A stretch of 64,000 bases of DNA from contig NZ_AP024601.1 of NCBI RefSeq assembly GCF_018326425.1, forward strand, positions 1,104,001 through 1,168,000, read 5' to 3'. Positions 7,176 to 56,438 of this stretch are shown piece by piece; the stretch's first letter is position 1; every line of letters begins with the position of its first letter. This stretch comes from Polycladomyces abyssicola. GTDB lineage: Bacteria; Bacillota; Bacilli; Thermoactinomycetales; JIR-001. A program made the translations under genes and the position numbers. Under the pieces are notes generated by a model, which was given only the letters and a program-made list of their open reading frames with translations, was not told the DNA's origin and did no database searches.

Positions 7176-9243
7176 ATGATACTTGATGACCGCAGCATCA
7201 AGCTACTCAAAGAAATCCTGATGTCACCAGGAATCAAAATTTCTGAATTACAGGGAAAATTCGCTTTGACTCGGCAACAGGCGTATTACAGTCTCAATAA
7301 GATCAACGATTGGCTCTCGGCAAATCATCTCCCCGTGATTCAAAAAAACGGTCAGTCGGGGGTGATGGTCGATCCCATCGTCAGCCAGATGTTTCCCGGA
7401 GCTGATGGCTGCATCAAGTATGATCGATTATGTTCCCTCTGAAATGGAGCGGTGCAAACTCATCTTGTTGATGCTGCTCGGCCGGCAGAATGATATCTCC
7501 CTGTTCCACTTATCCAGCGCCCTCAAGGTGAGTCGCAATACGGTATTGCTGGATCTGAAAAATATCAAGGAAATGTTGAAGGGTGAAGATCTACATTTGG
7601 CATATACCCGGCGTGGCGGGTATGATCTTCACGGCCAAGAAATGGAGAAACGAAAATGGCTGATCAAACTGGTACGGGAAGTTTTGCAGATGCCCAATGG
7701 GAAATCGTGGCTGTTATCCGTGACAGAGCTGTCATCAGATGAGGTAACGCTCATTCAAAAAAGAATTGAACAAGCGGAAAAACGTCTGCAAGTACGGTTC
7801 ACCGATGAAATACTGGAGGAATTGCCTTATATCTTTTCCCTTCTAAACAGAAGGATCAAAAGAGGACAGATTCTTCAACATCATGAGCTCGATCATCAGG
7901 ATATTCGGAATACACGGGGATATCAGATTGCCAAAGAGCTGTTTGGTCAGGATGATTGGAGCGAACCCGAGCTCCTTTTTATCGCGTTGCAACTGTTGTC
8001 TTCCAATCTGCTGTCAGCTACTCCCGCCAAGGATGAGCAAACGGCTCGATTGACGGCAGCGATTGATCAGATGTTGCAAACGTTTGAGCAATTAGCCTGT
8101 ATTACCTTTCACGAAAAGGAACATCTGATTGAGCGGCTGTTATTTCACTCGCGGCCAGCCTATTATCGCATCAAATACGGCTTCCCCTTCGACAATCCGA
8201 TGTTGGATGTCGTTGTAAAAGAACATGGTGAATTACATCATTTGGTCAAGAAATCGATCCACTCATTCAAGGCGTTGTTAAAAAAAGACATACCAGAAAG
8301 TGAATGCGCTTACATCACCATGCTGATCGGAGGTTGGTTGCAAAAACAGGGGGATGCACTATCGGAAAGATGGAAAGCGATTGTGGTGTGTCCGAATGGG
8401 ATATCTGTTTCCAAGCTATTGTTGGAAACGTTGCGTGAACTTTTTCCCGAGTTTATATTCCTGGATGCCATTTCCGTTCGGGAATTTGCCGACTATCAAC
8501 TGCATTACGACCTGGTATTTTCCACGGTGTTTCTAAATACGGACAAGAAATGGTTTCTTGTCAAACCGCTGCTCTCGGCTGAGGAAAAACGCCGCTTGAG
8601 AATGCGTGTCTCGCAAGAGTTGTTGGGATTCAACCCGATGCAAATCGATCTGGAACAATTGATCGGGGTGATTCAACAACATGCCGCGATTGAGAACAAA
8701 ACCACATTAAAAACTTCGCTCAAGCGCTTTTTTCAGGTAAAATCATCTCCCTATATCCTTGAAGATCGAAACAGGAAAAAACCCGATTTGGCCGATCTGT
8801 TGACCAGCGAGACCATTTTGATAAACAAGGGCGTTTCTACTTGGCAAGATGCCATTCATCTGGCTTCGACACCCTTGATCGACATGGGATCGATTGATCC
8901 CGGTTACGTTGACGCCATGATTCGCATGTACGACCCATCCCAACCCTATATCGTGATTGCGCCCAGGGTTGCCCTTCCCCATGCTAGACCGGAAGACGGG
9001 GTTTCCCGATTGACGATGAGCATGCTGTGCATGGAAGAAGGGGTGGAATTTGCCAAAGGGTTGACAGTAAATGTAGTGATCGTGATTGCAGCCGTTGATC
9101 GGAAACAGCATCTCAAAGCGCTCATGCAATTGAATCAACTCGTGTCGGATCCAGTCAATGTGACTCAAATCATACAAGCCGGAAATAAAGTGAGTATCCT
9201 TCGTTTGGTTGAAAAATATTCCAAATTAAGCGAAGTCAGCTGA
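7176..9243 (+). pseudogene. PRD/EIIB/EIIA-domain transcriptional activator, frameshifted
   Basis: This is a BglG/MtlR-type PTS-controlled activator in two reading frames. The first part (from ATG 7176 after AAGGAGGG) encodes an HTH domain (KISELQGKFALTRQQAYYSL). The second, from about 7398, encodes a second HTH, PRD domains, a GatB-like EIIB domain (VVCPNGISVSKLLLETL) and a C-terminal EIIA domain with the phosphorylatable His in ALPHARPEDGV. Removing one C from the CCC at 7395-7397 joins the frames as QMFPELMAASSMIDYV, which reads naturally. It is either a recent one-base insertion or a sequencing error. It heads the PTS operon and would be its activator; the downstream frame could also start at ATG 7405. 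Confidence 0.8.
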
Positions 9244-9291
9244 TAGATAAATGACGCGAGGAATGAAGATGTCAATTTTGAGAAAAAGAGG

Positions 9292-9780
9292 GTGGGTACG
9301 ATTTTCAGTGACTTTTTTCATAGAGAATTGATTTTCACCGACGTGGTTTATGCTGACCGAGAGGATCTGCTGGAGAAGATTTCCCGTTATTTGTGGGAAA
9401 AAGGGTTTGTCAAAGAGAGTTTTCGAGAAGCCATTCTGGAAAGGGAAAGAAAATATCCCACCGGGTTGCGCATCCTTCCACACCATGTGGCGATTCCGCA
9501 TATAGATCCGGAACACATCAAAACACCCTTTATCGCGATGGTTCGTCCCAAACAATCGATTGAATTTATAGAAATGGCTACCCACGATCAAGTGATTGAT
9601 GCCCGACTCGTCTTTGTACTCGGTTTGAAACAATCTGCAGATCAAGTGGAGCTGCTACAAAGCCTGATTGAACTGTTTATGAAACAAAAGGTGATGGATC
9701 AATTACTAAAGGAACATGATGTCGAGGTCATCATGAGTTCGTTGGAAAAAAATCTCTCTGCAAAGGGGTTGAGTGTATGA
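9292..9780 (+). CDS. PTS sugar transporter subunit IIA, galactitol type
   Basis: EIIA receives a phosphoryl group from HPr and passes it to EIIB. The 162-residue protein resembles the fructose/mannitol-type EIIA fold as used in GatA. The active His is probably H70 in HHVAIPHIDPEH. The GTG start at 9292 lies next to an AGAGGG ribosome site, and the stop overlaps the EIIB start by four bases, indicating coupling. The substrate cannot be told from this subunit. Confidence 0.88.
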   Translation: MGTIFSDFFHRELIFTDVVYADREDLLEKISRYLWEKGFVKESFREAILERERKYPTGLRILPHHVAIPHIDPEHIKTPFIAMVRPKQSIEFIEMATHDQVIDARLVFVLGLKQSADQVELLQSLIELFMKQKVMDQLLKEHDVEVIMSSLEKNLSAKGLSV

Positions 9781-10052
9781 AAAGAGTGATTGTAGCGTGT
9801 GGCTCTGGCGTGGCGACGAGTCAAATGGTCGCATCCAAACTCAAAAATCTGTTACAGAAACGAGGGATACCGGCGCAGGTAGATGCCGTAGATATCAAAT
9901 CCCTGGATCGACACATCAAAAACTGTGACGTGTATGTATCGATTACGAAGCCAGACAAGGATTATCCCGTTACCGTCTGCAGCGGAATTCCTTTTCTAAC
10001 GGGTGTTGGTATGGATGCAGAGCTTGAAAAGATCATCCAGGCATTGAAATAA
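9777..10052 (+). CDS. PTS sugar transporter subunit IIB, galactitol type
   Basis: EIIB carries the phosphoryl group on a cysteine and transfers it to sugar during uptake through EIIC. The 91-residue protein has the P-loop-like active site VACGSGVATSQM with the phosphocysteine at C8, typical of the lactose/galactitol EIIB fold. It overlaps EIIA and is followed after 27 bases by EIIC, so the three subunits are separate polypeptides of one complex. Confidence 0.92.
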   Translation: MKRVIVACGSGVATSQMVASKLKNLLQKRGIPAQVDAVDIKSLDRHIKNCDVYVSITKPDKDYPVTVCSGIPFLTGVGMDAELEKIIQALK

Positions 10053-10079
10053 TTGGCCTTATTAAAAGGAGGTTCCAAT

Positions 10080-11462
10080 ATGGAAGTACTCAAAAACGCG
10101 ATTCATTTTGTATTGGACCTTGGTGCCCCTGTGTTCGTGCCGTTGATTATGATCATCGTGGGCTTGATTGTCCGCATGAAATTTAGAGATGCTTTTTCAT
10201 CTGCATTAACCCTGGGATTGGCTTTCATCGGAATGAACATGGTCGTCGGTTTCATGATGGATTCCATCAGTCCGGCAGCACAAGCGTTTGTCAAGAACAG
10301 CGGCATCAACTTAAATGCTATTGATGGGGGCTGGACCCCCATGTCCACTCTTGCATGGGCATGGCCGCTGGCTTTCCTGATGTTCCCTGTTCAGATCATA
10401 ATCAATCTCCTCATGTTGGCGTTTAAACAAACAAATACACTCAACGTGGATTTGTGGAACGTGTGGGGGAAGATTTTTACCGCGGTTCTCGTGATCGGGG
10501 TTTCCGGTAACATCCCGCTTGCCTTTTTGATCGCAGCCATTCAGGTAGTGCTTGAACTGAAAATGGGAGATGTCAACCAAAAACAAATCCAAAAATTAAC
10601 GCAAATCCCTGGCGTCACTTGTACCCATGGGATGACACTTTTCAATGTATTTTTGTATCCCATTAACCGATTGCTGGATTATATTCCGTTCTTAAATAAA
10701 CACATTGACGCCAACTGGTTGAAACAAAGGATCGGAATATTCGCAGAAAATCATGTGATGGGGTTCATCATTGGAGTCCTGATCGGAACTTTTGCCCAGT
10801 ATCCGCCGCAAAAAATTCTCATCCTGGGGGTGCAAGGGGCAGCAGCCTTGACGCTGTTTCCCATGGTGGCCCGCTTGTTCATGGAAGCACTTGCTCCACT
10901 GTCAGATTCCATCTCCGAATATATGAAACGAAAGTACTCCGATCGTCAACTATACATCGGCTTGGATTGGCCGTTTATGGCAGGTTGCAATGAATTATGG
11001 GTGGCTATGATCATTTGGGTTCCCATTACCTTGTTATGGGCAGTCATCCTTCCCGGAAACAACATTCTACCCTTCGGAGGGATCATCAATCTCTCGCTGG
11101 CTGTACCAGCCCTCATTGTAACAGGTGGAAATCTACTGCGTATGATCGTGCTCGGCGTGCTGACAACACCGGTTTTCCTGTATGTAGCGACTTACTTTGC
11201 ACCCACCATCACCAACCTGGCGAAGGACACCCATGTGATCAATATAAAAGATGGCCAGTTTTTATCGTGGAGTTCGATTGAATTACCCGATTTTCGTTAT
11301 ATATTCGCTCAAGCATCCAACATCGTTCACGGGGAGTTCCTGGGTCTGGTTTTGGCCATTGGATGGTTGGGGCTTTTCTACTGGTATTACAAGGGCATGC
11401 AAAAACGTGCGAATCAGCTTTCGACGGAACTTGACGGAACGAGTCATCACATGTCTTTGTGA
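10080..11462 (+). CDS. PTS sugar transporter subunit IIC, galactitol type
   Basis: This 460-residue polytopic membrane protein is the permease of the PTS complex and matches the GatC family, with segments such as LGAPVFVPLIMIIVGL, GMNMVVGFMMDSISPAA and LAWAWPLAFLMFPVQ. I chose ATG 10080 because AAAGGAGG sits directly upstream; a longer reading from 10053 runs through that ribosome site. GatC-family permeases transport hexitols, pentitols and some pentoses, so galactitol is only one possibility. No sugar-phosphate dehydrogenase accompanies it. Confidence 0.92.
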   Translation: MEVLKNAIHFVLDLGAPVFVPLIMIIVGLIVRMKFRDAFSSALTLGLAFIGMNMVVGFMMDSISPAAQAFVKNSGINLNAIDGGWTPMSTLAWAWPLAFLMFPVQIIINLLMLAFKQTNTLNVDLWNVWGKIFTAVLVIGVSGNIPLAFLIAAIQVVLELKMGDVNQKQIQKLTQIPGVTCTHGMTLFNVFLYPINRLLDYIPFLNKHIDANWLKQRIGIFAENHVMGFIIGVLIGTFAQYPPQKILILGVQGAAALTLFPMVARLFMEALAPLSDSISEYMKRKYSDRQLYIGLDWPFMAGCNELWVAMIIWVPITLLWAVILPGNNILPFGGIINLSLAVPALIVTGGNLLRMIVLGVLTTPVFLYVATYFAPTITNLAKDTHVINIKDGQFLSWSSIELPDFRYIFAQASNIVHGEFLGLVLAIGWLGLFYWYYKGMQKRANQLSTELDGTSHHMSL

Positions 11463-39288: not shown

Positions 39289-40449
39289 ATGCCTTTTTAC
39301 CGTCGCATGGGAGAGATTCCGTGCAAACGGCATGTGCGGTTCCGCAAGGAAGACGGCGGGTTGTACCGCGAAGAAGTGATGGGAACCAAAGGATTTTCGG
39401 GGATGCAATCCATCTTGTATCATCATCATCCACCCACACAGATCAGCGATGCACGTTTGCTTCGCGACTGGACGGTGCTGTTGGAAGAATCGGGGGCCAA
39501 CCGGCACCGCCATTTTCTCACGCGAAAGCTTTCGCCCGGAGGCGATCCGATCGACGGAAGACAATATTTACTGGTCAATGAGGATGTGGCGATCGGTATT
39601 TGTATGCCGACGGAGCCGATGGATTATTTTTTTCGGAACGGCGATGGAGATGAAATATTGTTCGTTCATGAGGGAGAAGGGTGTGTGGAGACGGTGTTCG
39701 GAACCCTATCCTACCGCCCCGGTGACTACATCGTCATCCCGGTCGGTACGACGTACCGCATCGTTACGTCCAGTGAACGGACCCGTTTTTTGGTGATCGA
39801 GTCCACGGGTGAAATCACGATTCCCAAACGCTACCGCAATGAATACGGTCAATTGATGGAGCACAGTCCATTTTGTGAACGGGACATTCGTGGTCCGGAG
39901 CGGCTGATTCCCCATGTGGAGGTAGGCGAATTCGAGGTGCGTGTCAAGGCACGAAACCAACTCCATGCCTATCGCTATGATTTCCATCCGTTTGATGTGG
40001 TGGGGTGGGACGGTTATCTGTATCCGTATGTGCTTAGCATTCACGATTTTGAGCCAATCACCGGATCCATTCATCAACCCCCGCCGGTGCATCAGACGTT
40101 TGCCGGACCCAACTTTGTGGTATGTTCGTTTGTGCCGCGCCTGTTCGACTACCATCCGGAGGCGATCCCCGTACCTTATTATCACAGCAATGTACACAGT
40201 GATGAGGTACTGTACTATGTGGAAGGTAATTTCATGAGCCGTCGCGGGATCGAGTCCGGTTCGATCACGTTGCATCCGAGCGGTATTCCGCACGGCCCGC
40301 ATCCCGGGGCGATTGAGAACAGCCTGGGTAAGGATCGAACCGAGGAGCTGGCCGTGATGGTGGATACGTTTCGTCCCCTTCATGTGGCCCGTTCGGCGTT
40401 GGCGGTGGAAGATCCCAACTATCTGAAGAGCTGGTTGCCCGCGCAGTAG
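39289..40449 (+). CDS. hmgA: Homogentisate 1,2-dioxygenase
   Basis: HmgA opens the ring of homogentisate in tyrosine breakdown using a non-haem iron. The 386-residue protein shows the family segments MGEIPCKRHVRF, the DEILFVHEGEG cupin strand, and the C-terminal iron-binding set including HSNVHSDEVLYYVEG and LHPSGIPHGPHPG. The ATG at 39289 follows GGGAGGAAGAAGG. The rest of the tyrosine pathway (4-hydroxyphenylpyruvate dioxygenase, fumarylacetoacetase) is not in the window. Confidence 0.92.
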   Translation: MPFYRRMGEIPCKRHVRFRKEDGGLYREEVMGTKGFSGMQSILYHHHPPTQISDARLLRDWTVLLEESGANRHRHFLTRKLSPGGDPIDGRQYLLVNEDVAIGICMPTEPMDYFFRNGDGDEILFVHEGEGCVETVFGTLSYRPGDYIVIPVGTTYRIVTSSERTRFLVIESTGEITIPKRYRNEYGQLMEHSPFCERDIRGPERLIPHVEVGEFEVRVKARNQLHAYRYDFHPFDVVGWDGYLYPYVLSIHDFEPITGSIHQPPPVHQTFAGPNFVVCSFVPRLFDYHPEAIPVPYYHSNVHSDEVLYYVEGNFMSRRGIESGSITLHPSGIPHGPHPGAIENSLGKDRTEELAVMVDTFRPLHVARSALAVEDPNYLKSWLPAQ

Positions 40450-40714: not shown

Positions 40715-41362
40715 ATGCAAATCGATCCTCAACAACAGTCGCAAAAAGAAAACTATAAATTGTTGATCGGCAGTGTATTGCCACGTCCGATCGCGTTTGT
40801 CACCTCCCGAAATGGTAACGGGGTGGTCAATGCGGCTCCATTCAGCTTTTTCACCGTAGTTTCCACCAATCCACCGATGGTAAGCATTTCGGTTGGACGC
40901 AAACCGGGGAATGTACAGAAGGACACGACGCGTAATATCGCCGAAATGAAGGAATTCGTCGTGCACGTAGTAGACGGGGAGAATGTGGAGCGAGTCAACC
41001 AGACCGCGATCGACTTCCCTCCGGATGTAAGTGAGGTGGAAGCGGTCGGATTTGATCTGGTGCCCAGCGTCAAGATCCAAACGCCGCGAATTGCACAGGC
41101 CAAAGTGCAGATGGAATGTGTGTTGGACCGAATTCTGCCGATGGGCGGAACACCGGATGCACCCAATACCGATCTCATTATCGGCCAGGTCGTAATGTTC
41201 CATGTGCGCGATGACCTGTTGGCGGAGGGGAGAATCGACACCCGTCTGCTCGATCCGATCGGACGGTTGGCAGGAACGTCCTACGGCACGATCGGTCAAA
41301 CCTTTTCTCTGCCGCGTCTGTCATTCGAAGAGTGGCAACAGCGAAAACGGGAACAGGAGTAA
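40715..41362 (+). CDS. Flavin reductase-like domain protein
   Basis: The 215-residue product has the FMN-binding split-barrel fold of the flavin reductase/DIM6-NTAB family (GSVLPRPIAFVTSRNGNG, VNAAPFSFFTVVS, PPMVSISVGRK). Such proteins supply reduced flavin or act as flavoproteins in ring oxidation. The ATG at 40715 has AAGGAG upstream. It is on the same strand as hmgA but 265 bases away; a link to aromatic catabolism is only suggested by position. Confidence 0.85.
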   Translation: MQIDPQQQSQKENYKLLIGSVLPRPIAFVTSRNGNGVVNAAPFSFFTVVSTNPPMVSISVGRKPGNVQKDTTRNIAEMKEFVVHVVDGENVERVNQTAIDFPPDVSEVEAVGFDLVPSVKIQTPRIAQAKVQMECVLDRILPMGGTPDAPNTDLIIGQVVMFHVRDDLLAEGRIDTRLLDPIGRLAGTSYGTIGQTFSLPRLSFEEWQQRKREQE

Positions 41363-46813: not shown

Positions 46814-47616
46814 TGAACGTTGCACTGTACCGGGCAATGTGGCGGTTGCATGGCAAGACGTTGGGAGCGATGGCGATCGGGTCGTTTCTTTATGTGCTGA
46901 TGATTGTCACCATCTATCCCACCTTGGCTCCAGAAGACATGAATGAATTGCTGAAGAAAATGCCGGAAGAGATGATGAAAGTGTTTGGAATTGAGGCCGG
47001 GGTACAGCGTTTAAACGATTTTATTGCTGTAGAGTACCACAACTTCATGTATTTGATCCTGCTGATGGTGTACAGCGTGGTGATCCCGACCCGGCTAGTG
47101 GCCCGGCATGTAGACCGGGGGTCCATGGCTTTTCTGCTGTCAACGCCGTTGTCCCGGCCACGGCTCGTCCTGACGCAAGTCGCATTTTTCATCACGGGGC
47201 TCGGGCTTATCAACCTGTTCACCGTCCTCGGCGGGATCGCGGGAGATGTCTGGATACTGGATCAACCTGCCCTGGATCGGTCAAACTACGTGGAACTGAA
47301 TCTGGTCTGTTTCCTGTTTTTTTCTGTGATCGGTGCGTACAGCTTCCTGTTTGCGTGCTTGTTTGACGACGAAAAGAAGGCGGTCTCCTGGTCGGCGACA
47401 GTGACCATTTTGTTCTATGCCATGGACTTTGCGGGCAAGCTGGGAGAAAAACTGGATTGGCTTCGAAACTGGACGTTTTTCAGCCTATATGAACCGGCAC
47501 GTCTCGCGCGGGGAGAAGAAGATATCTTGTGGACGGCGGTAGGTTTGGGCTTTACCGCAATGGTGCTGTTCCTCCTTGCGGCGATGGTTTTCCGACGGCG
47601 CAATTTGTCATTGTGA
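46810..47616 (+). CDS. ABC-2 type transporter permease
   Basis: The 268-residue membrane protein has about six hydrophobic segments (first GAMAIGSFLYVLMIVTIYP) and the general layout of ABC-2 permeases, with STPLSRPRLVLTQV in the cytoplasmic loop that contacts the ATPase. Together with the ATPase gene it should form an exporter or a membrane-stress transporter. GGGAGGCG lies seven bases before the ATG. The substrate is unknown. Confidence 0.82.
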   Translation: MMNVALYRAMWRLHGKTLGAMAIGSFLYVLMIVTIYPTLAPEDMNELLKKMPEEMMKVFGIEAGVQRLNDFIAVEYHNFMYLILLMVYSVVIPTRLVARHVDRGSMAFLLSTPLSRPRLVLTQVAFFITGLGLINLFTVLGGIAGDVWILDQPALDRSNYVELNLVCFLFFSVIGAYSFLFACLFDDEKKAVSWSATVTILFYAMDFAGKLGEKLDWLRNWTFFSLYEPARLARGEEDILWTAVGLGFTAMVLFLLAAMVFRRRNLSL

Positions 47617-47691
47617 TGAGGGGTCACGGAATGTGTCCGCATCATGAACAGCGCGAAGTCCCCTATTTGATTGTGAGGGGAGTGAAATGTC

Positions 47692-48118
<427 letters not shown>

Positions 48119-48150
48119 TAGCAGTGCGGCAACCAAAAACGAAGTAAGGG

Positions 48151-48219
48151 GCCACTCTGATAAAGAGTGGCTGAGGCAGTTGATAAACCCAGTGGTTTTG
48201 CCATGGGTTTGTCAACTGC
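48151..48219. repeat. Two adjacent hairpins, one long and nearly perfect
   Basis: GCCACTCT/AGAGTGGC (48151-48171) is followed by a 44-base hairpin at 48176-48219 with arms GCAGTTGA-AAACCCA-TGG and CCA-TGGGTTT-TCAACTGC. No T tract follows. The pair lies just after the PEP-synthase remnant. Confidence 0.6.
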
Positions 48220-48300
48220 TTCACCTAATATAACTTAGCTCATGGTGTCAGAGCCCTGTTTATGACCACCAAATCCAAAATATGTGTGATAAAAGACTTG

Positions 48301-48471
48301 CTATTTCAACCCAAGCAGATTTTTGCAAATGATCCATAATGGTGTAATTCTTCTCCAAAGATTGATGATAGACTGAATTACTTTAGGCATAGGAATAAAA
48401 TTCAATACTTTTAACATCAGACTACGAATATCCATTCCTTTTAAAGAAGGTAGCGAAGCGGTCATTTTCAC
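48301..48471 (-). CDS. Small cationic hydrophobic peptide, unrecognised
   Basis: A possible 56-residue product from GTG 48471, with AGGGGGG upstream. It is strongly basic (about nine Lys/Arg against one Asp) with hydrophobic and Trp-containing stretches (VIQSIINLWRR, PLWIICKNLLGLK). This resembles small membrane-active peptides in general character only. It lies in a decaying region, so it could also be chance. No immunity or export gene is adjacent. Confidence 0.35.
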   Translation of the reverse strand: MKMTASLPSLKGMDIRSLMLKVLNFIPMPKVIQSIINLWRRITPLWIICKNLLGLK

Positions 48472-48671
48472 AAATCCCCCCTAATGTTTTCTGGGAATAG
48501 GTTATTCTGACTCATGTGATGTGGAAAGGGCAGATGTTAGTAGTCAGACGCTTATTTTCTCATTCGAGTTTGTGTGCGAATCACTATTTTTGCGTATTGA
48601 GCATTCGTGGTGACCAGGAAGAAAGGAAATAAATATGGTGATTTCGGATTTAGAGGAAAGGGGGGAATCAG

Positions 48672-48883
48672 ATGAGTTGGAGTTATGGTTATGGCTTTGG
48701 AATGGACTTCGTCGACTCTTGATTTTCCTGTTGGTTATCGCCACCATCTTTGTATTTGCCGGAATAGGTTTTGGTTATAAAGAGCGAGCGGGAAAACCCA
48801 GCCCTTCAGGTTTGGAAAGCGAGCGTCGGACGAGGGAGGGCTTAAGCTCTCTTGCAAGTTCGACAGAATTTTGGTACAATTAA
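48672..48883 (+). pseudogene. YjcZ-type small sporulation protein, frameshifted
   Basis: After an AAAGGGGGG ribosome site, ATG 48672 reads MSWSYGYGFGMDFV, the Gly/Tyr-rich start typical of YjcZ-family proteins. The expected following membrane helix (LLIFLLVIATIFVFAGIGFGY) lies in another frame just downstream near 48717. A one-base change would join them. Alternatively the second frame is a separate ORF starting at 48635. Confidence 0.4.
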
Positions 48884-48889
48884 ATATAA

Positions 48890-49056
48890 ATAGAGAAGCG
48901 AGAAAACACTTAAAACTACTTTGCGAGCGAAATCTCGATAAACTAAAATCACTAGGCTTGGACGAAGCCATCGTGGATGGATGTGGGTTGCCACGCCAGA
49001 TGAAGCGAGAAGCCTACGGCTTTAGCCGTGTGGGGCAAGTCACTAAAACGAGATAA
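48890..49056 (+). mobile_element. 3' remnant of an IS200/IS605-type element
   Basis: A coding fragment (KLKSLGLDEAIVDGCGLPRQ followed by MKREAYGF) resembles the C-terminal end of OrfB/TnpB proteins, which often end in KQEA-type motifs. It is followed by a small ACGGCT-TT-AGCCGT hairpin near 49016-49032, like the right-end hairpins of IS605 elements. The rest of the element is absent. The identification rests on pattern recall. Confidence 0.4.
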
Positions 49057-49103
49057 AGTAAGTGGATCAACGGCACACACTTACTTTTGGTGGCTTATTA
49101 CCT

Positions 49104-49144
49104 GACAAACAAGCTACATTCGGTAGCTTGTTTGTCATTTTTTT
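49104..49144 (+). terminator. Strong intrinsic terminator
   Basis: GACAAACAAGCTAC-ATTCG-GTAGCTTGTTTGTC forms a 14-bp perfect stem followed by ATTTTTTT. It lies at the end of the mobile-element remnant. Confidence 0.88.
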
Positions 49145-49172
49145 AGAAGGTCCCGTCTGGTACATCTTTGTT

Positions 49173-49340
49173 TTATTCGTCCTCTCGTAGAAAAGAATCG
49201 GCTTGTTCGGCGGCTTCTTCTTCTGACTGAAAATCAAACAGACGGTGCATCTCGTGAATCACTTTCCAAATCTCATCTTTGGAATACCCTAAGTTCTTTA
49301 ATGCCAATGTTGCATAACCGATTACGTGATTATGGTTCAC
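49173..49340 (-). CDS. Small acidic protein, unrecognised
   Basis: A 55-residue product from GTG 49340 has an amphipathic N-terminal half (YATLALKNLGYSKDEIWKVI) and a Glu-rich C-terminus (FQSEEEAAEQADSFLRE). AAAGGGG lies ten bases upstream. The smooth codon usage and helical pattern make it a likely real gene. No family is recognised; size and charge resemble small regulatory or anti-factor proteins. Confidence 0.5.
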   Translation of the reverse strand: MNHNHVIGYATLALKNLGYSKDEIWKVIHEMHRLFDFQSEEEAAEQADSFLREDE

Positions 49341-49489
49341 GGATACCGATCCCCTTTACAATGTTGATCAGTCCTATTTTGAGCAGAAAACGTGTTTTCG
49401 AATACGTGAAGGTCCCCGATTCAGTGTAATTGGCACAGCTTCATAGCCCATTTTGCCGGGATCGTGAAGGTCGCTCACCTGGAAAAACA

Positions 49490-49520
49490 ACGCCCCCATA
49501 CAAGGGGGTAATTTTTTTTA
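49490..49520 (+). terminator. Weak hairpin with T run ahead of the fusion gene
   Basis: CCCCC and GGGGG arms with an ATACAA loop are followed by TAATTTTTTTT. The stem is short. A TTGTCA...TATTAT promoter pair (18-base spacer) lies just downstream at about 49540-49570. Confidence 0.4.
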
Positions 49521-49627
49521 AAAAATTGCGCCAAAACCCTTGTCAAAGTGTAATGATGCTTTGTATTATAACAGTAAGATATAATCAGGAGTTGTTATAA
49601 AACAATCCGGTGGAAGGGGCATCATCC

Positions 49628-52204
49628 ATGACCACTCATACTTCTACGCATAGAAAAGCCGTCTCTGTTGCCTTCGATTCGGATGGGCGTGCATCGCTCC
49701 AAGTCGTTCGCTCGGGAAATCCAGTCCACGCCAAAACCAGAATCCGACCGCAAGTGAATACTACTGACCATTTTCGGCTGATGGAATGGGAAGTTTCACC
49801 CGGTCGTACGATTGCTGTGTTGTCGCCTACATCCGGGTCGTCCGACTCATCCGCCATCGAGGAATGGGTACGATGGATGAGGCAACTGGCAGCACGGGAT
49901 GAACTGAAAGTATTGATCCTCGCCTGCCATGGCGGTCGTTTCCTGTTTTCCTCCAGCCATCTTCAAGAGAAGTGGCAGTCCTTCGAGGCGGGATTGGAAT
50001 TGATGGAACGGATGAACAAGTCATTGATAGCAGCGGTGGACGGGACGGTCTCTGGGATTGGTTGCGCAGTTGCCCTATGTACGCACGCAGTCGTGGCAAG
50101 CGAATCGGCACGTTTTATCCTGCCGGCAGGAACGGGTGTCATTCAGCGTCTGGTAAGAATCGCCCACTTGCAAAAAGGAGCTGACGGCCTCGTTCGAGCT
50201 GTCACCTGGCTTTGCTCCGATCGTGCGATAACGGCGCGGGAAGCGGAGGAAATGGGATGGGTAGACCAATGTTGTGAAGGAGAAGCCTTGCCGTTGGCGG
50301 TTGCTTGGGCAAAAGCGGCGGCTGCGGCAGGACAGGGGCCGCTTGCCGAAGCGTTTATCCGCCGCAGGGCGTGGCGAAACGATTGGGAGCGCCCAAGGCC
50401 GTTCACCATACTGGGCAGACAAGAGCGGGAACGAATCATCGCAGGAATACGAGATCAGGATACACAATTGAAAGAAATCCTGTCCTTGATTCAAACCGGC
50501 TATGAACAAGGATTTTCGACGGGGTTGGTTCATGAACGGAAATGGTGGGCTGCACGAACCCAACGGCCGGAAGCCAATCAGTCCCCGCAATGGAGCTATA
50601 CCGTTCGGTCATTGACACAGGAGGAAGAAGAGCAGTGGATTCGCGAAGGTCAGTTGCTTCCTCCCGATTCCCCTTTTTACCCGGGTATCTCACCGGTTCC
50701 GTCCTGGCAATACCGGACAACGGATCCGGTGACGGTGATCCCCGTACGTAGGCCCGGTCCGAGAGAAGTGTTGGTGTATGTATTGTCACGTGGGGCCAAT
50801 TGCTCCGGCTTGGTGGTGGAGACAGGGCGAACAGTAAGGGAGGAAAAGGAGATCCATGCAGGAGATGCGGTGATCGTCATCCCCGGAGGTTTACAAGAAA
50901 TGGAAGGACAGTTTGTAACGGTAGGAGCGGAACAGGTATTTCCCAAACCGGTCAATCTGTCTTTTGCGGAGGCAGCCAATTTGTTGCCGTGGATGATGGC
51001 CCACCGCATTACTCGTCATCGGGAAAGAGGACGCGTCTGGATCGACGGTTTGGAGGAAAGTGCGGCGCTGGCTTGTTACACCTTGGTTCAACATGATGAA
51101 GGGAAGGTGACGGTGATGACGTCGTCGGATCGGGAGAGGCGGATGACGGAGGAAAGGAATGCCGAGGCATTGGATCTGCGTCATTTACGTTACCGCGGTG
51201 TTTTCACCAAAATCCCAGCCGACTCCTCTACTTGGCGCAGGTGGGAGGAGCTGGGGAAAAAGGTGATTGAGGATTTTCGGTGTCGCAATCATGGGGAGCT
51301 AGCAGATTGGACCGCTACTTTCTATGGAGAACGCACATTCGGAAGAGCTTACCAACTGTTGAAGGACGGCGGACTCTTGGTGGTGGCGGGTGCCCGTGAA
51401 GGGGAACAGCTGACGTTTATCGGGAAAAGGGGAGAGCGCTCACCTTCTACCTTTCTGAAGCGAGCCGGTGAGTCGGTCGTCTTGTACTACGGAATGGGTC
51501 TGCGTCGGGATGAAGTGATGGACCCGTTCGGTTGGCGGGTGATCCAAGTTGCCGAGCAGCGTCAGGATCGGTTGGTCATCATCACCCAATCCGAAGCGCA
51601 GAAACGGTGGCTGAAAGGTCGACTCGGTGACCATGTGGCGGGAATCATCAGCATCGAGGAGTGCGCTGCCTCTTGGCCGGGAGAATTTGATTGGCCCCCT
51701 TCTGTTCCCTATTTGCCGAACCCTTCCGAACGGAAAAAGGATTGGCTGTTGACGCGACAACTGTTCGAACGACGGACGATTCGTCCCTTGCGCGCCGTGA
51801 TCGGTGAACACTTACGTACGATGCAAAATCCGGAGGGGTATGCGGACGTGGTGGTGGACCGGGCGGATCACGATGCTTTGGGGATCAGCCTGTATTTGGT
51901 CAAGCCGAAGTCGGGACGTGTCGTTTTTGGTGAGAATATGGCCGGCAAACGGTACAGTTTTTACGCTTCCACCATGATGGAACCGGAGCGGCGAATCGTC
52001 ACACCGTCAGCGACCATCGTCGGATGCGGACTTCCCGATACCGAAGATGTGCAACGTGTGTTGGAATGGATGGAAAACGGAGTGTTCCGGAAAGAGCGTC
52101 GTCTCATAATGGCGGAAACGGAACACAGAGGTATGGCCACAACCGTGTTAGCCGATCTCCACACGGTGGATCAACTATATGAAGCGTGGAGTTCGCAGTG
52201 TTGA
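49628..52204 (+). CDS. Fusion of crotonase-like and medium-chain reductase-like domains
   Basis: The 858-residue protein joins two enzyme folds. Residues of about 55-250 resemble enoyl-CoA hydratase/isomerase (LKVLILACHGGRFLF, SLIAAVDGTVSGIGCAVALC, TAREAEEMGWVDQCC). Residues of about 350-858 resemble crotonyl-CoA reductase/MDR dehydrogenases (GPREVLVYVLSRGANCSG, HAGDAVIVIPGG, DLHTVDQLYEAW). The crotonase oxyanion-hole and acid residues are not clearly conserved, nor is a clean GxGxxG in the reductase. A role in acyl-CoA or polyketide-like metabolism is possible. ATG 49628 has GGAAGGGG upstream. It stands alone, with promoter and terminator. Confidence 0.65.
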   Translation: MTTHTSTHRKAVSVAFDSDGRASLQVVRSGNPVHAKTRIRPQVNTTDHFRLMEWEVSPGRTIAVLSPTSGSSDSSAIEEWVRWMRQLAARDELKVLILACHGGRFLFSSSHLQEKWQSFEAGLELMERMNKSLIAAVDGTVSGIGCAVALCTHAVVASESARFILPAGTGVIQRLVRIAHLQKGADGLVRAVTWLCSDRAITAREAEEMGWVDQCCEGEALPLAVAWAKAAAAAGQGPLAEAFIRRRAWRNDWERPRPFTILGRQERERIIAGIRDQDTQLKEILSLIQTGYEQGFSTGLVHERKWWAARTQRPEANQSPQWSYTVRSLTQEEEEQWIREGQLLPPDSPFYPGISPVPSWQYRTTDPVTVIPVRRPGPREVLVYVLSRGANCSGLVVETGRTVREEKEIHAGDAVIVIPGGLQEMEGQFVTVGAEQVFPKPVNLSFAEAANLLPWMMAHRITRHRERGRVWIDGLEESAALACYTLVQHDEGKVTVMTSSDRERRMTEERNAEALDLRHLRYRGVFTKIPADSSTWRRWEELGKKVIEDFRCRNHGELADWTATFYGERTFGRAYQLLKDGGLLVVAGAREGEQLTFIGKRGERSPSTFLKRAGESVVLYYGMGLRRDEVMDPFGWRVIQVAEQRQDRLVIITQSEAQKRWLKGRLGDHVAGIISIEECAASWPGEFDWPPSVPYLPNPSERKKDWLLTRQLFERRTIRPLRAVIGEHLRTMQNPEGYADVVVDRADHDALGISLYLVKPKSGRVVFGENMAGKRYSFYASTMMEPERRIVTPSATIVGCGLPDTEDVQRVLEWMENGVFRKERRLIMAETEHRGMATTVLADLHTVDQLYEAWSSQC

Positions 52205-52278
52205 TACTTCATGAGGATTGGCCGGTGAATTCGGGAGACAATCTCTACCCGAACACCGGTCATTTCAAAAATTCGGAC

Positions 52279-52315
52279 AAAAAAGACCCGACATCCCAGT
52301 ACGGGTGCTGGGTCT
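52279..52315 (-). terminator. Terminator for the HTH-TPR regulator gene
   Basis: On the minus strand AGACCCAGCACCCGT and the matching ACTGGGATGTCGGGTCT form a hairpin with internal bulges, followed by TTTTTTG. Confidence 0.7.
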
Positions 52316-52377
52316 ACTATGTATGTTGAACTGAAATCGTATTCGCTGCCATTACCTCCAAAAAGGTGCGGGTATTG

Positions 52378-53712
52378 TTACATGATTTCGCCGTAATCCT
52401 CTTCATTGTGGCCCGCTTCCAAATCTGCAGTAATCTCATACATGTTTTCCAACAGAATGAGGAAGTCCTCTTGGCTTTTGTTTCGTGCAACCTTCGCCAA
52501 GCGGAACAATGCTTTTTGTTGAAGGAACTTGTTTTGGTACTTGCGGGAGATGTCCAACGATTGGCTGAAAAAGTGTGCAGCCTCTTCAGTGTTGCCCCGT
52601 TTCAGGTGGTAATCTCCCATTACCAAACAGGCGGCGGTGGTGGAGATGGCATCGCTGGACCGGTCGCTCAGCCGGATCGCCGTGGAGAGGGCATCGTGGG
52701 CTTTTTCCAGCAAATCCTGATGCATGTACAGGAGGCCCAGTTTGGTGTAGGTGGTGACCAGTACGTTTTTGGAGCGGACATATCGTCCCAGTTTGAGAGC
52801 GGTTTTGAAACAGCTCTCGGCACAGGACCAATCCCCCTTGGCAGAATAGACACTGCCAAGGCTAGACCACAAATCGAAGAGCTGGTCGATATGCTGGTTC
52901 AACTGCGCTTTCTCAATCCCTTCCAATGCCACTTTGACCGCTTCGTCGTACATTTTGATCTTTCGAAGAATGTTGACCTTGGTCTCCCGCAGACGGAGTG
53001 CGGCGGTAGAGTCCATGTGTTCGATTTGGCTCCATACATCTTCCATCACTTTCATCGCTTCCCCCAACCGGCCAAGTCGTTCGAGGTAAGCAGCTTTGTT
53101 GGCAGCGGCGATGTATTTGATCTGTGTACGTTCTCCTTCCTCGGTAAATGTCTTGAGAGCGCTTTCGGCAAATTGAAGGGCTTGCTCGAGATGGTTCTGT
53201 CTGTAACTGCAGACGCTCAATTCACAGAATGCTGCGGCTTCGATGTTGTATTTTTCTTCCGTCTTGTATTGATTGGCCAGTCGGATTGCATTGTACAGTG
53301 CTTTCTCCGCTTTTTTCCAGTTTTCGTCGGCGACATGACATTTTCCTTTCAAATAGTGTACAGTGGGTGCAAATTTGTGATCGTCCCCGATATTCAAGTC
53401 GTCCAATTCCGTTAACAGTTCGCGGCTGTCGCCGTACCCGATGGAGGATTCAATCGCCATCAACCGGATCAGCAATTTGTTGTCCCTGTGCGTTTCACTT
53501 TCCAATAATTGCGGGATCTGTTCCAGCGTCAGTCCCAGTTTGTCCAGCAGGTACATTATTTTATCGGGACTGACATGAGGAACGCCGCGCTCGATGTTGC
53601 TCACTGTGGCAGGTGAGATGTTTTCGTCGGCCAGGTCCTCAAGACGCAGGTTTTTGTTTTTGCGTACCTTCCGAATCACATCGCCGATTTGGATCACGTC
53701 GATTTCTTTCAT
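52378..53712 (-). CDS. HTH-XRE and TPR-domain regulator
   Basis: The 444-residue protein has an N-terminal XRE DNA-binding domain (IGDVIRKVRKNKNLRLEDLA, NISPATVSNIERG) and a long C-terminal array of TPR-like helices (WKKAEKALYNAIRLA, LEKAHDALSTAIRLS, TEEAAHFFSQSLDISRKY). This layout is that of RRNPP-type regulators such as PlcR, NprR and ComR, which bind signalling peptides. No peptide gene is evident next to it, so the ligand, if any, must be encoded elsewhere. The ATG at 53712 follows an AAGGAGAG site. Confidence 0.82.
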   Translation of the reverse strand: MKEIDVIQIGDVIRKVRKNKNLRLEDLADENISPATVSNIERGVPHVSPDKIMYLLDKLGLTLEQIPQLLESETHRDNKLLIRLMAIESSIGYGDSRELLTELDDLNIGDDHKFAPTVHYLKGKCHVADENWKKAEKALYNAIRLANQYKTEEKYNIEAAAFCELSVCSYRQNHLEQALQFAESALKTFTEEGERTQIKYIAAANKAAYLERLGRLGEAMKVMEDVWSQIEHMDSTAALRLRETKVNILRKIKMYDEAVKVALEGIEKAQLNQHIDQLFDLWSSLGSVYSAKGDWSCAESCFKTALKLGRYVRSKNVLVTTYTKLGLLYMHQDLLEKAHDALSTAIRLSDRSSDAISTTAACLVMGDYHLKRGNTEEAAHFFSQSLDISRKYQNKFLQQKALFRLAKVARNKSQEDFLILLENMYEITADLEAGHNEEDYGEIM

Positions 53713-53867
53713 CAAATTCTCTCCTTAGAAAAAACGATTTGATTAATAATTCTATCATATCATTTGACGGAAAAGTGTGAAATAAATTTTCAAACGCACA
53801 CGGCTCCGAACTTCTCGCCGTGATGGAGGTGGGATCAGAGCCGTGTGGATTTCAAAGTGTGTACTTG

Positions 53868-55694
53868 TTAACCTTCTTTTTTTACCGCTTGTGCGCGTTT
53901 TCGTTCGCTTTTGGTCAGGTAGCGTTTACGTAAACGGAAAGCGACAGGTGTTACTTCCAACAATTCATCATCCGCCAAATATTCGATGGCATCATCCAAA
54001 CTCATTTTACGCGGCGGTTCCAGACGAAGGGCGTCGTCCGATCCGGCGGCCCGGAAGTTGGTCAGTTGCTTTTTCTTGCATACGTTGACTTCCAGATCCG
54101 TTTCCCGGATATGCTGGCCGACAATCATGCCTTCGTACACTTCGGTATTGGGTTCGATAAACAACTGACCGCGATCTTGGGCGGCATGAAGCCCGTAGGT
54201 GGTGGCCACACCCGATTCCCATGCAATCAACGATCCGAAATTGCGGGTCTGAATCTCACCTACGTACGGCTCGTAACCAGCGAACAAGGTGTTCATCACC
54301 CCTTCGCCGCGTGTGGCGGTGAGGAATTGCTGGCGGAAGCCGATCAAGCCCCGGGTAGGAACGAGATACTGAAGGAATACCATTCCGTCCTCGCGGATTT
54401 GCATATCCTGCATCCGTCCCTTTCGTTGGCCGAGGAGTTCAACAACGGCCCCCTGATGCTCACTGGTCACTTCAATTTCCACCGTCTCAAAGGGTTCGTA
54501 CAACTGGCCGTCAATCCGCTTCATGATGACTTCCGGTTTGCTGACCTGAAATTCGTAACCCTCCCGGCGCATATTTTCAATCATGATGCCGAGATGAAGC
54601 TCGCCCCGACCGGCCACGAGAAAGACGTCCGGTGAGTCCGTGTCGGAGACGCGCAGGGCCACATCCCTGGCCGCCTCCAGATAGAGGCGCTCCCGGAGTT
54701 TGCGGGAGGTGACGTATTTGCCTTCCCGTCCGGCGAACGGGCTGGTATTCACTCCGATCGTGACGCGCAGGGTGGGTTCTTCCACTTTGATCGGAGGCAG
54801 TGGTCGCGGATCATCAGGGTCGGCGATCGTGTCCCCGATTCCGACATCACCCAATCCCGTCAAGGCGATGATATCCCCGGCCGTGGCTTCCTCCACTTCG
54901 ATCCGGTTTAGCCCGCGATGCGTAAATACCTGTGCGACTTTGAGCGGTTGGGAAGTCCCGTCCGCCCGCATCCACAAGACATTTTGGTTGCGGCGGATGG
55001 TTCCGCTGTTCAATCGTCCGATCACGATTTTCCCTTTGTATTCGTCGTAGCCCATCAATGTCGCCTGCAGTTGCGTCGGACCTGACGGGTCGACGTCCGG
55101 TGCGGGAAGATCGGCTACGATCCGTTCAAACAGTGGCTTTAGCGTCTCCGCCAAACGGTCCGGTTCCGTCCCGGCCCATCCCTTGATCGCACTGGTGTAG
55201 ATCACGGAAAAGTCAGCTTGTTCATCCGTCGCACCCAGATCGACGAACAAATCAAACGTCTCATTGACCACTTCTTCCGGCCGTGCGTTGGGTCGGTCGA
55301 TTTTGTTGACGACGACGATCGCTTTGTGACCCCGCTCCAGGGCTTTGCGCAACACGAACCGGGTCTGCGGCATGGGACCTTCCACCGCGTCGACCAAAAG
55401 CAGCACCCCGTCCACCATGTTCATGACACGTTCCACTTCGCCGCCGAAATCGGCGTGCCCCGGCGTGTCGACGATGTTGATTTTGATCCCTTTGTATTCG
55501 ATGGCGGTATTTTTGGAAAGGATGGTGATCCCCCGCTCCCGTTCCAGTGCATTGGAATCCATCACACGTTCCGCCACCTGTTGATTTTCGCGGAAAATAC
55601 GGCTTTGTTTCAGCATGGCGTCGACCAATGTAGTTTTGCCGTGGTCGACGTGTGCGATGATAGCGATATTGCGAATCTGATTCGGTTGTTTCAT
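53868..55694 (-). CDS. typA: Ribosome-associated translational GTPase TypA/BipA
   Basis: TypA is a ribosome-binding GTPase of the EF-G class that supports growth under stress and 50S assembly. The 608-residue protein has G1 AHVDHGKTT near residue 14-22, the switch region RERGITI, G3 [13 protein letters not shown]4 [10 protein letters not shown] and the BipA C-terminal domain. I chose the ATG at 55694; a TTG at 55703 and a longer reading from 56183 are less convincing. A 9-bp inverted repeat with a long loop (ACACGGCTC/GAGCCGTGT, 53797-53846) lies after the stop. Confidence 0.95.
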
Positions 55695-55913
55695 GTCCGT
55701 CAAGGGGTTGTCCCCTGTTCCTCCTCCACTGCCAAAATAGCGGATTTCACTAAATGACATGGTATCACACGAGAACGACACTCCGCCATAGGTAATCAGG
55801 TTAAAGGAGATGAAAGGAATAAACGGACTGTGAAATGTATACAAATCAAAAATACCCGGAGATTGATCAGACGTACCCTTGAATGAATCGATCCGGGAAA
55901 GGTGGAATGGGAT

Positions 55914-56438
55914 ATGGAGCCGAACCGTCAAAAGCGGATCGTGATTCGGGAAGCGGAAAGAAAGGATGCCACAGGCATTCTTTCCTGCCTGCGACAAGCG
56001 GCGATGGAGTCGGATTTTTTGACATCGGAACCGGACGAGATGAATTTGACGGTGGAACAGGAGGAGCGATTCATCGCAGAGATGGCTTCTCGTTCCAATG
56101 CATTGTTTTTGGTGGCCGAAGCACAGGAAGGGATCGTGGGCACCTTGACCTTTACCGGAGGTTTCACACGACGAACCAGGCATGTGGGAGAGGCGGGGGC
56201 TGCCGTTTTGCGGGATTATTGGGGATACGGAATTGGTACGAAATTGATTCAGGTACTAGTGGACTGGTGTCCTCGGGCGGGGATTCGGAAGATTAACGGG
56301 AGAACGCGCTTGGATAACGTACGGGGCATCCGTCTGTGTGAAAAGATGGGGTTTCAAGGGGAAGGTGTGTTAAAAAGGGAGCTGCAGATCGATGGGCGGT
56401 TTTATGACTTTGTGTTGCTCGGCCGTCTGATTGACTAA
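55914..56438 (+). CDS. GNAT-family N-acetyltransferase
   Basis: The 174-residue protein has the GNAT fold, with the acetyl-CoA motif [20 protein letters not shown] and the later [20 protein letters not shown]. Substrate is unknown; similar proteins modify antibiotics, peptides or ribosomal proteins. I chose ATG 55914, with AAAGGTGG upstream, over a GTG at 55902. Confidence 0.85.

Follow-up and report, generated by a model that had tools for sequence, protein, structure and literature searches.

We analyzed a 64,000-nucleotide window of the genome of Polycladomyces abyssicola (3,197,230 bases in one contig; NZ_AP024601.1, window at positions 1,104,001 to 1,168,000), in which positions 49628..52204 of the plus strand hold an open frame for a protein of 858 amino acids, P0001. 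Preceding the ATG at 49628 is a stretch resembling GGAAGGGG, for the most part conserved across the three species of the genus, and a GTG at 49610 is a second possible start. The frame is unbroken in 3 of the 3 genomes of the genus, the other two proteins being 84 and 87% identical to P0001. As the preliminary description of this DNA had stated, the gene lies outside any fatty-acid operon: it stands alone behind its own predicted promoter, TTGTCA-N18-TATTAT (49540..49569, plus strand; 10/12 matches), the one site found in a scan of an upstream region where 2.3 such sites are expected by chance. The leader RNA upstream of the gene is predicted to be no more stable than shuffled sequences (z -0.77), and no Rfam family matched within 47000-53500. 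Upstream on the plus strand are a homogentisate 1,2-dioxygenase-like gene (39292..40440) and a flavin-reductase-like gene (40715..41335); downstream, in convergent orientation, is a frame holding the TypA GTPase (53868..56183, minus strand). A gene for an HTH-TPR regulator (52378-53715, minus strand) adjoins the P0001 gene and is absent from the gene list of a second genome of the set, G002, between the same neighbors; a short frame at 47692-48075 with two PPDK_N stretches is probably what is left of a PEP-synthase-like gene that was once longer.

The first half of P0001 belongs to the crotonase superfamily, with a Pfam ECH_1 match at aa 111-221 (37.7 bits, above the curated cut-off of 27). 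The second half resembles the crotonyl-CoA carboxylase/reductase family of medium-chain dehydrogenases, weakly by sequence and also by fold (4gi2, 4y1b); its matches to ADH_zinc_N (Pfam; aa 555-593, 20.6 vs a cut-off of 31.8) and to the family model TIGR01751 (NCBIfam; aa 428-595, 31.4 bits vs 378.55) fall below the respective cut-offs, and P0001 differs from this family also in the fused crotonase (ECH) domain and in an additional Rossmann domain. By far the more extensive similarity is to propionyl-CoA synthase (PCS), represented by the structure 6eqo from Erythrobacter sp. NAP1, which phmmer matches with an E-value of 1.2e-78 in two stretches, query 56-402 and 427-818. The domains and activity of PCS are already known and are described, in part, in two publications (PMC11599936; PMC4029986). 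The preliminary description had recognized a single protein uniting crotonase-like and crotonyl-CoA-reductase-like halves, and the open 858-aa frame, the ECH_1 match and the match of PCS to both halves bear this out.

The whole-protein model of P0001 (AlphaFold2 with 20 sequences) is of moderate quality (pLDDT 77.6, pTM 0.58) and matches 6eqo with a Foldseek E-value of 4.5e-65. In VIA-align, which re-examined Foldseek matches only, so that families outside that list could match as well, residues 41-858 superimpose on 885-1843 of 6eqo with Z 43.4, rmsd 9.1, 798 aligned residues and 30% identity. The order of the ECH domain and the reductase (ECR) as well as the overall fold are thus those of PCS, and the large rmsd implies that the domains are placed differently or that their packing in the model is unsure. 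From the N-terminus, the model comprises a low-confidence tail (aa 1-45; 49628..49762), the ECH domain (aa 46-318; 49763..50581), and an ECR made of a GroES-like domain (aa 346-462; 50663..51013), a first Rossmann domain (aa 463-612; 51014..51463) and a second, duplicated one (aa 613-815; 51464..52072), all on the plus strand. The two Rossmann domains align along their length in a single profile comparison (probability 86, E 4.6e-6), and the model of a short relative from another family of the order (residues 93-285) resembles the nucleotide-binding domains of crotonyl-CoA carboxylases/reductases (4y0k: Z 14.8, rmsd 2.6, 162 residues); together, these observations indicate that the ECR of PCS contains a duplicated Rossmann domain, a feature that P0001 shares. 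Of the three domains of PCS, the ligase (ACS) is absent from P0001, and no ACS match is among the Pfam and NCBIfam matches listed for it. The frame starts within the linker between the ligase and ECH domains, and aa 36-50 align with that linker of intact PCS. Judging by sequence, P0001 almost certainly descends from PCS. An independent or recent crotonase-reductase fusion was considered and discarded because the match to PCS extends over the two halves and includes the linker. Accordingly, the earlier suggestion of a separate fusion that only resembles PCS does not hold: given the full-length sequence and fold match, the PCS-specific parts and a promoter composite shared with PCS genes (see below), P0001 is PCS itself, reduced to the ECH and ECR domains.

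That descent does not extend to the catalytic residues. The alignment of P0001 with 6eqo and other PCS rows confirms the preliminary remark that the catalytic motifs of both halves are altered. In the ECH domain, A147 occupies the position of Glu 1007 of 6eqo, Glu 1027 falls in a 7-residue deletion following P166, I144 replaces the glycine of the oxyanion hole, and the PCS motif FVAGAD reads LFSSSH; by analogy with enoyl-CoA hydratase, we take the two glutamates to be the crotonase catalytic pair and the glycine to be the oxyanion glycine. In the ECR, residues ~402-427 stand for some 76 residues of PCS, and the glycine-rich NADPH loop, of the EGAATGTGLEAL type in PCS, is replaced by DGLEESAALA (473-482). 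We defined 303 PCS-invariant columns as those at least 95% identical among 26 PCS rows, which include four N-terminally incomplete ones (L084, L087, L090, L111) and two from one contig (L073, L106). P0001 retains 35/95 of these columns in the ECH domain, 4/9 in the linker, 23/78 in the GroES-like domain (where 34/78 are deleted, leaving the substrate domain incomplete), 2/15 in the NADPH-loop half of the first Rossmann domain, 21/32 in its second half, 36/55 in the second Rossmann domain (603-800) and 3/19 in the tail. The best-kept body of the protein is therefore the second half of the first Rossmann domain together with the duplicated second one (aa 517-800). P0001 thus lacks the two glutamates and the glycine of the crotonase site, has no NADPH loop and has lost a large part of the GroES-like domain, which makes PCS chemistry very unlikely; we conclude with high confidence, from the residues, that P0001 no longer performs it. 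The preliminary description had named similarity along the whole length to a well-characterized enzyme family as the finding that would refute its reading. By homology such a similarity exists, to PCS, but the features that make PCS an enzyme are missing. Genes of this kind are liable to be annotated as crotonase or zinc-binding dehydrogenase despite the lost catalytic residues.

P0001 might still act as an enzyme on an acyl-CoA, catalyzing a changed reaction with substitute residues, given that the ECH and ECR folds are predicted for it, that one of the two glutamates is retained in 2 of 3 rows of related proteins from family f6 (see below), and that some members of the crotonase family function without the hydratase pair. 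Against this stand the combined loss of both glutamates, the oxyanion glycine, the FVAGAD motif and the glycine-rich loop (2/15), the deletion of 34/78 GroES-like columns, and the loss in the P0001 family, f1, of the cofactor-side columns of the first Rossmann domain (Y561, S564, H565, A566, Y587 and S590), which are also lost in family f3 except for one row with Y587 and one with Y561. We consider such an enzyme improbable; a non-catalytic role fits P0001 better than a new activity.

The gene is under purifying constraint. Three pairwise comparisons among the three species of the genus yielded dN/dS values of 0.203, 0.207 and 0.224, and across six segments of the gene the values over the three pairs range from 0.15 to 0.39, none above 0.39. 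For neighboring genes (G000 vs G002), the values are 0.061 (TypA), 0.096 and 0.205 (two ABC genes) and 0.12 (MFS); the constraint on P0001 is real, yet looser than for most of these four neighbors. At 0.20-0.22, P0001 is no neutral relic, which rules out a plain pseudogene within the genus; a chance frame is ruled out by these values together with the intact frame in all three genomes.

We searched 42 genomes of the order Thermoactinomycetales with P0001 as the query (E at most 1e-25) and found relatives in 13; a family f6 protein used as the query added three (G027, G029, G038). The 16 PCS-like loci are distributed over three families: f1 (3/3 genomes), f3 (8/10) and f6 (5/23). At the thresholds used, none of the 6 genomes of families f2, f4 and f5 showed a PCS-like match, and nothing matched in 18/23 f6 and 2/10 f3 genomes, so that the gene appears to be dispensable there. 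An intact PCS was found in none of the 42 genomes; among 398 genomes of the class Bacilli, it was present in 7, all in family f17, which a named scan identified as Aneurinibacillus and its kin. A scan of genome contigs with P0001 alone retrieved no relative, whereas an alignment-based scan yielded 33 loci, of which 19 entered the alignment (A3). Candidate virus-borne relatives were rejected: none of 55 candidate stretches on viral contigs was upheld. A literature search that mostly excluded subscription journals yielded no report of a reduced PCS or of a PCS in Thermoactinomycetales.

The reduced proteins differ from family to family. In f3 (Paludifilum, Melghirimyces, Marinithermofilum, Marininema, Kroppenstedtia), they are short, ~300 aa, and lack the ECH domain and the ECR front; they consist of the ECR rear only, with 52-59 of the 89 invariants there, nothing of the front domains being present except isolated residues where a frame was extended too far, and the best three are 41-44% identical to P0001 aa 505-838. 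The model of one such protein is confident (pLDDT 88.4, pTM 0.88) and matches 6eqo with Z 38.1 over 302 residues. Conversely, the f6 proteins of G022, G026 and G029 consist of the ECH domain and the ECR front and miss the rear (4-5/89), and in G027 and G038 the ECH domain is missing too. The f3 and f6 proteins have almost no segment in common, and P0001 spans the gap: of the forms observed in this analysis, it alone still unites the two halves that occur separately in its relatives. Because the parts kept in f3 and f6 hardly overlap, a function common to both families cannot reside in one retained domain. Either the pieces found new uses independently, or the gene is being lost in some lineages. 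The invariants retained in both f1 and f3 number 42 vs 28.5 expected (p 2.6e-9), an excess to which shared ancestry contributes. We class P0001 with the PCS lineage by descent but not as a PCS by function.

In an unrooted tree of the ECR rear, which omits five f3 loci (duplicates) and L103 (broken), f1 and f3 are together, separated by a branch with 100/98 support from 30 other PCS rows, some of which are split or incomplete. The f1 stem is long (1.35), and the f3 end branches measure 0.08-1.0 vs a median end branch of 0.062. A tree of the ECH side places f1 and f6 on one side with 74/89 support, a weak grouping because of this support and because long branches meet. Unrooted trees with such a split, along with the stand-alone PCS-type reductase of Haladaptatus (see below), are compatible with an ancient two-domain ECH-ECR fusion that preceded the ligase joining by which PCS arose. 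Such an origin is highly improbable: aa 36-50 of P0001 correspond in the alignment to the linker that joins ligase and ECH in intact PCS, the promoter composite is common to the intact PCS of Aneurinibacillus, and PCS-invariant residues are fewer at the active sites than elsewhere, as expected of loss.

This composite consists of two sites in the P0001 promoter region. Site A, TTGTATTATAACA (49561..49573, plus strand), overlaps the -10 box, and site B, TGTTATAAAACAA (49593..49605, plus strand), repeats site A in inverted orientation; when the 111-base region was shuffled 500 times, no shuffle attained 12/13 paired positions. The promoter and both sites are conserved in the three species, whereas the DNA further upstream is not, and the pair occurs at a single place in the genome of P0001. 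In the 42 genomes of the order, the strict composite, TATTATATAACA-N(8-36)-TGTNNTANTACAA, has 10 occurrences, all of them at PCS-like genes, and a looser form admitting the f1 variant covers 15/16 PCS-like loci, those of the short f3 proteins included; in the case of G029, site A is present without site B. Site A alone is found in 35/42 genomes of the order and hence is no marker by itself, only the pair being specific. Across the 398 Bacilli genomes, there are 16 strict occurrences in 14 genomes, 14/16 at PCS or PCS-like genes and 2/16 before a set of dehydrogenase and carboxyltransferase genes. Four of the 7 intact PCS genes are preceded by the strict composite (G052, G090, G118 and G130, the last assigned from coordinates only); those of G104, G160 and G190 lack it, for G160 and G190 in a second scan as well. 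Reversed control patterns are not among the matches listed in either composite search, and in the other loci of at least 9 kb, the only further matches of the loose pattern belong to duplicate copies of loci already counted and to the dehydrogenase and carboxyltransferase set. The shared composite points to a putative regulator of PCS in Bacilli.

The homogentisate-dioxygenase-like and flavin-reductase-like genes lie upstream on the same strand in 11/16 loci of f1, f3 and f6 and appear to be ancestral neighbors; TypA is downstream on the other strand in 5/16, in f6 as well as at P0001, some contigs stopping too early for the arrangement to be read in these counts. The shared neighbors and the two-site promoter (15/16) point to one ancestral gene.

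Taken together, these findings are compatible with the following scenario. In an ancestor of the order, an Aneurinibacillus-type PCS gene would have lost the ligase domain and the active sites; this single orthologous locus would then have shed different parts in each family, the promoter with its two sites staying in place, and in the genus of P0001 the ECH and ECR domains would persist as an 858-aa protein expressed from that promoter. On balance, we favor the interpretation of P0001 as a catalytically dead, PCS-derived protein that is still regulated and probably acts by binding. Binding is the simplest action to infer for a protein without ligase domain, dehydratase site or NADPH site in which a compact pair of Rossmann domains and the original control persist; the putative ligand, a CoA ester or a nucleotide, or else a protein partner, would be bound via aa 517-800. 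That such a non-catalytic binding role is under selection is a tentative proposal. Equally tentative is the broader idea that a trifunctional enzyme was dismantled differently in sister families, each piece being reused non-catalytically in the response that once controlled PCS.

The main rival explanation is slow decay, whereby the function is gone and the open frames persist owing to a slow rate of loss and a promoter that remains in use. The lineage-specific deletions, the absence of the gene from many relatives and the fast evolution evident in the f1 stem and the f3 end branches would all be expected of such a gene; in G027, moreover, a stretch resembling the end of the ECH domain lies in a frame different from that of the gene, a break that looks like decay. 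We nevertheless regard this explanation as unlikely in view of dN/dS values of ~0.2 among the three species, in every one of the six segments, and of 0.23 between two f3 genes, of listed frames that are open at 16 loci (the single stop, in G007, falls in a stretch matched at its end), of a promoter conserved where the flanking DNA is not, and of the compact f3 model. If the pieces favored here as binding proteins are functional, they form a natural series from an enzyme to non-enzymes, with intact and reduced forms under a shared locus and promoter, the steps of which can be dated and tested, and in which a regulatory element has outlasted the enzyme it served.

The second target of the composite was found in two Aneurinibacillus-genus genomes (G090 and G130), where the composite precedes genes for a short-chain dehydrogenase, an iron alcohol dehydrogenase, and accD-like and accA-like proteins (both above curated cut-offs), which are followed by electron-transfer-flavoprotein (ETF beta, alpha) and FixC-like genes (L162:3313-11356, and L163). 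In both genomes, two copies of the composite lie ahead of the set, the second, loose copy being closer to the dehydrogenase gene. Together with PCS, the predicted products of this set could convert acetyl-CoA via malonyl-CoA and 3-hydroxypropionate to propionyl-CoA, hinting at a possible route of this kind in Aneurinibacillus; no malonyl-CoA reductase was identified for it.

At the loci L072-L074, L078 and L079, frames that presumably resemble uracil-DNA glycosylases adjoin intact Aneurinibacillus-type PCS genes, in several cases together with a permease-like frame, both names being our own assumption. In Thermochlorobacteriaceae (L099:4161-7322 and 7812-10349), PCS is split inside the ECH domain into two tandem frames, and in Blastocatellia/Chloracidobacterium (L093, L097, L110), PCS frames of ~820 aa begin within the ECH domain with no PCS front part immediately preceding them in the same orientation; sequencing errors could account for both arrangements. 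Finally, a plasmid of Haladaptatus encodes a stand-alone PCS-type reductase that is annotated as a zinc-binding dehydrogenase (L114:5935-7833); distinct genes for a hydratase and a CoA ligase lie close by, making this an unfused counterpart of PCS.
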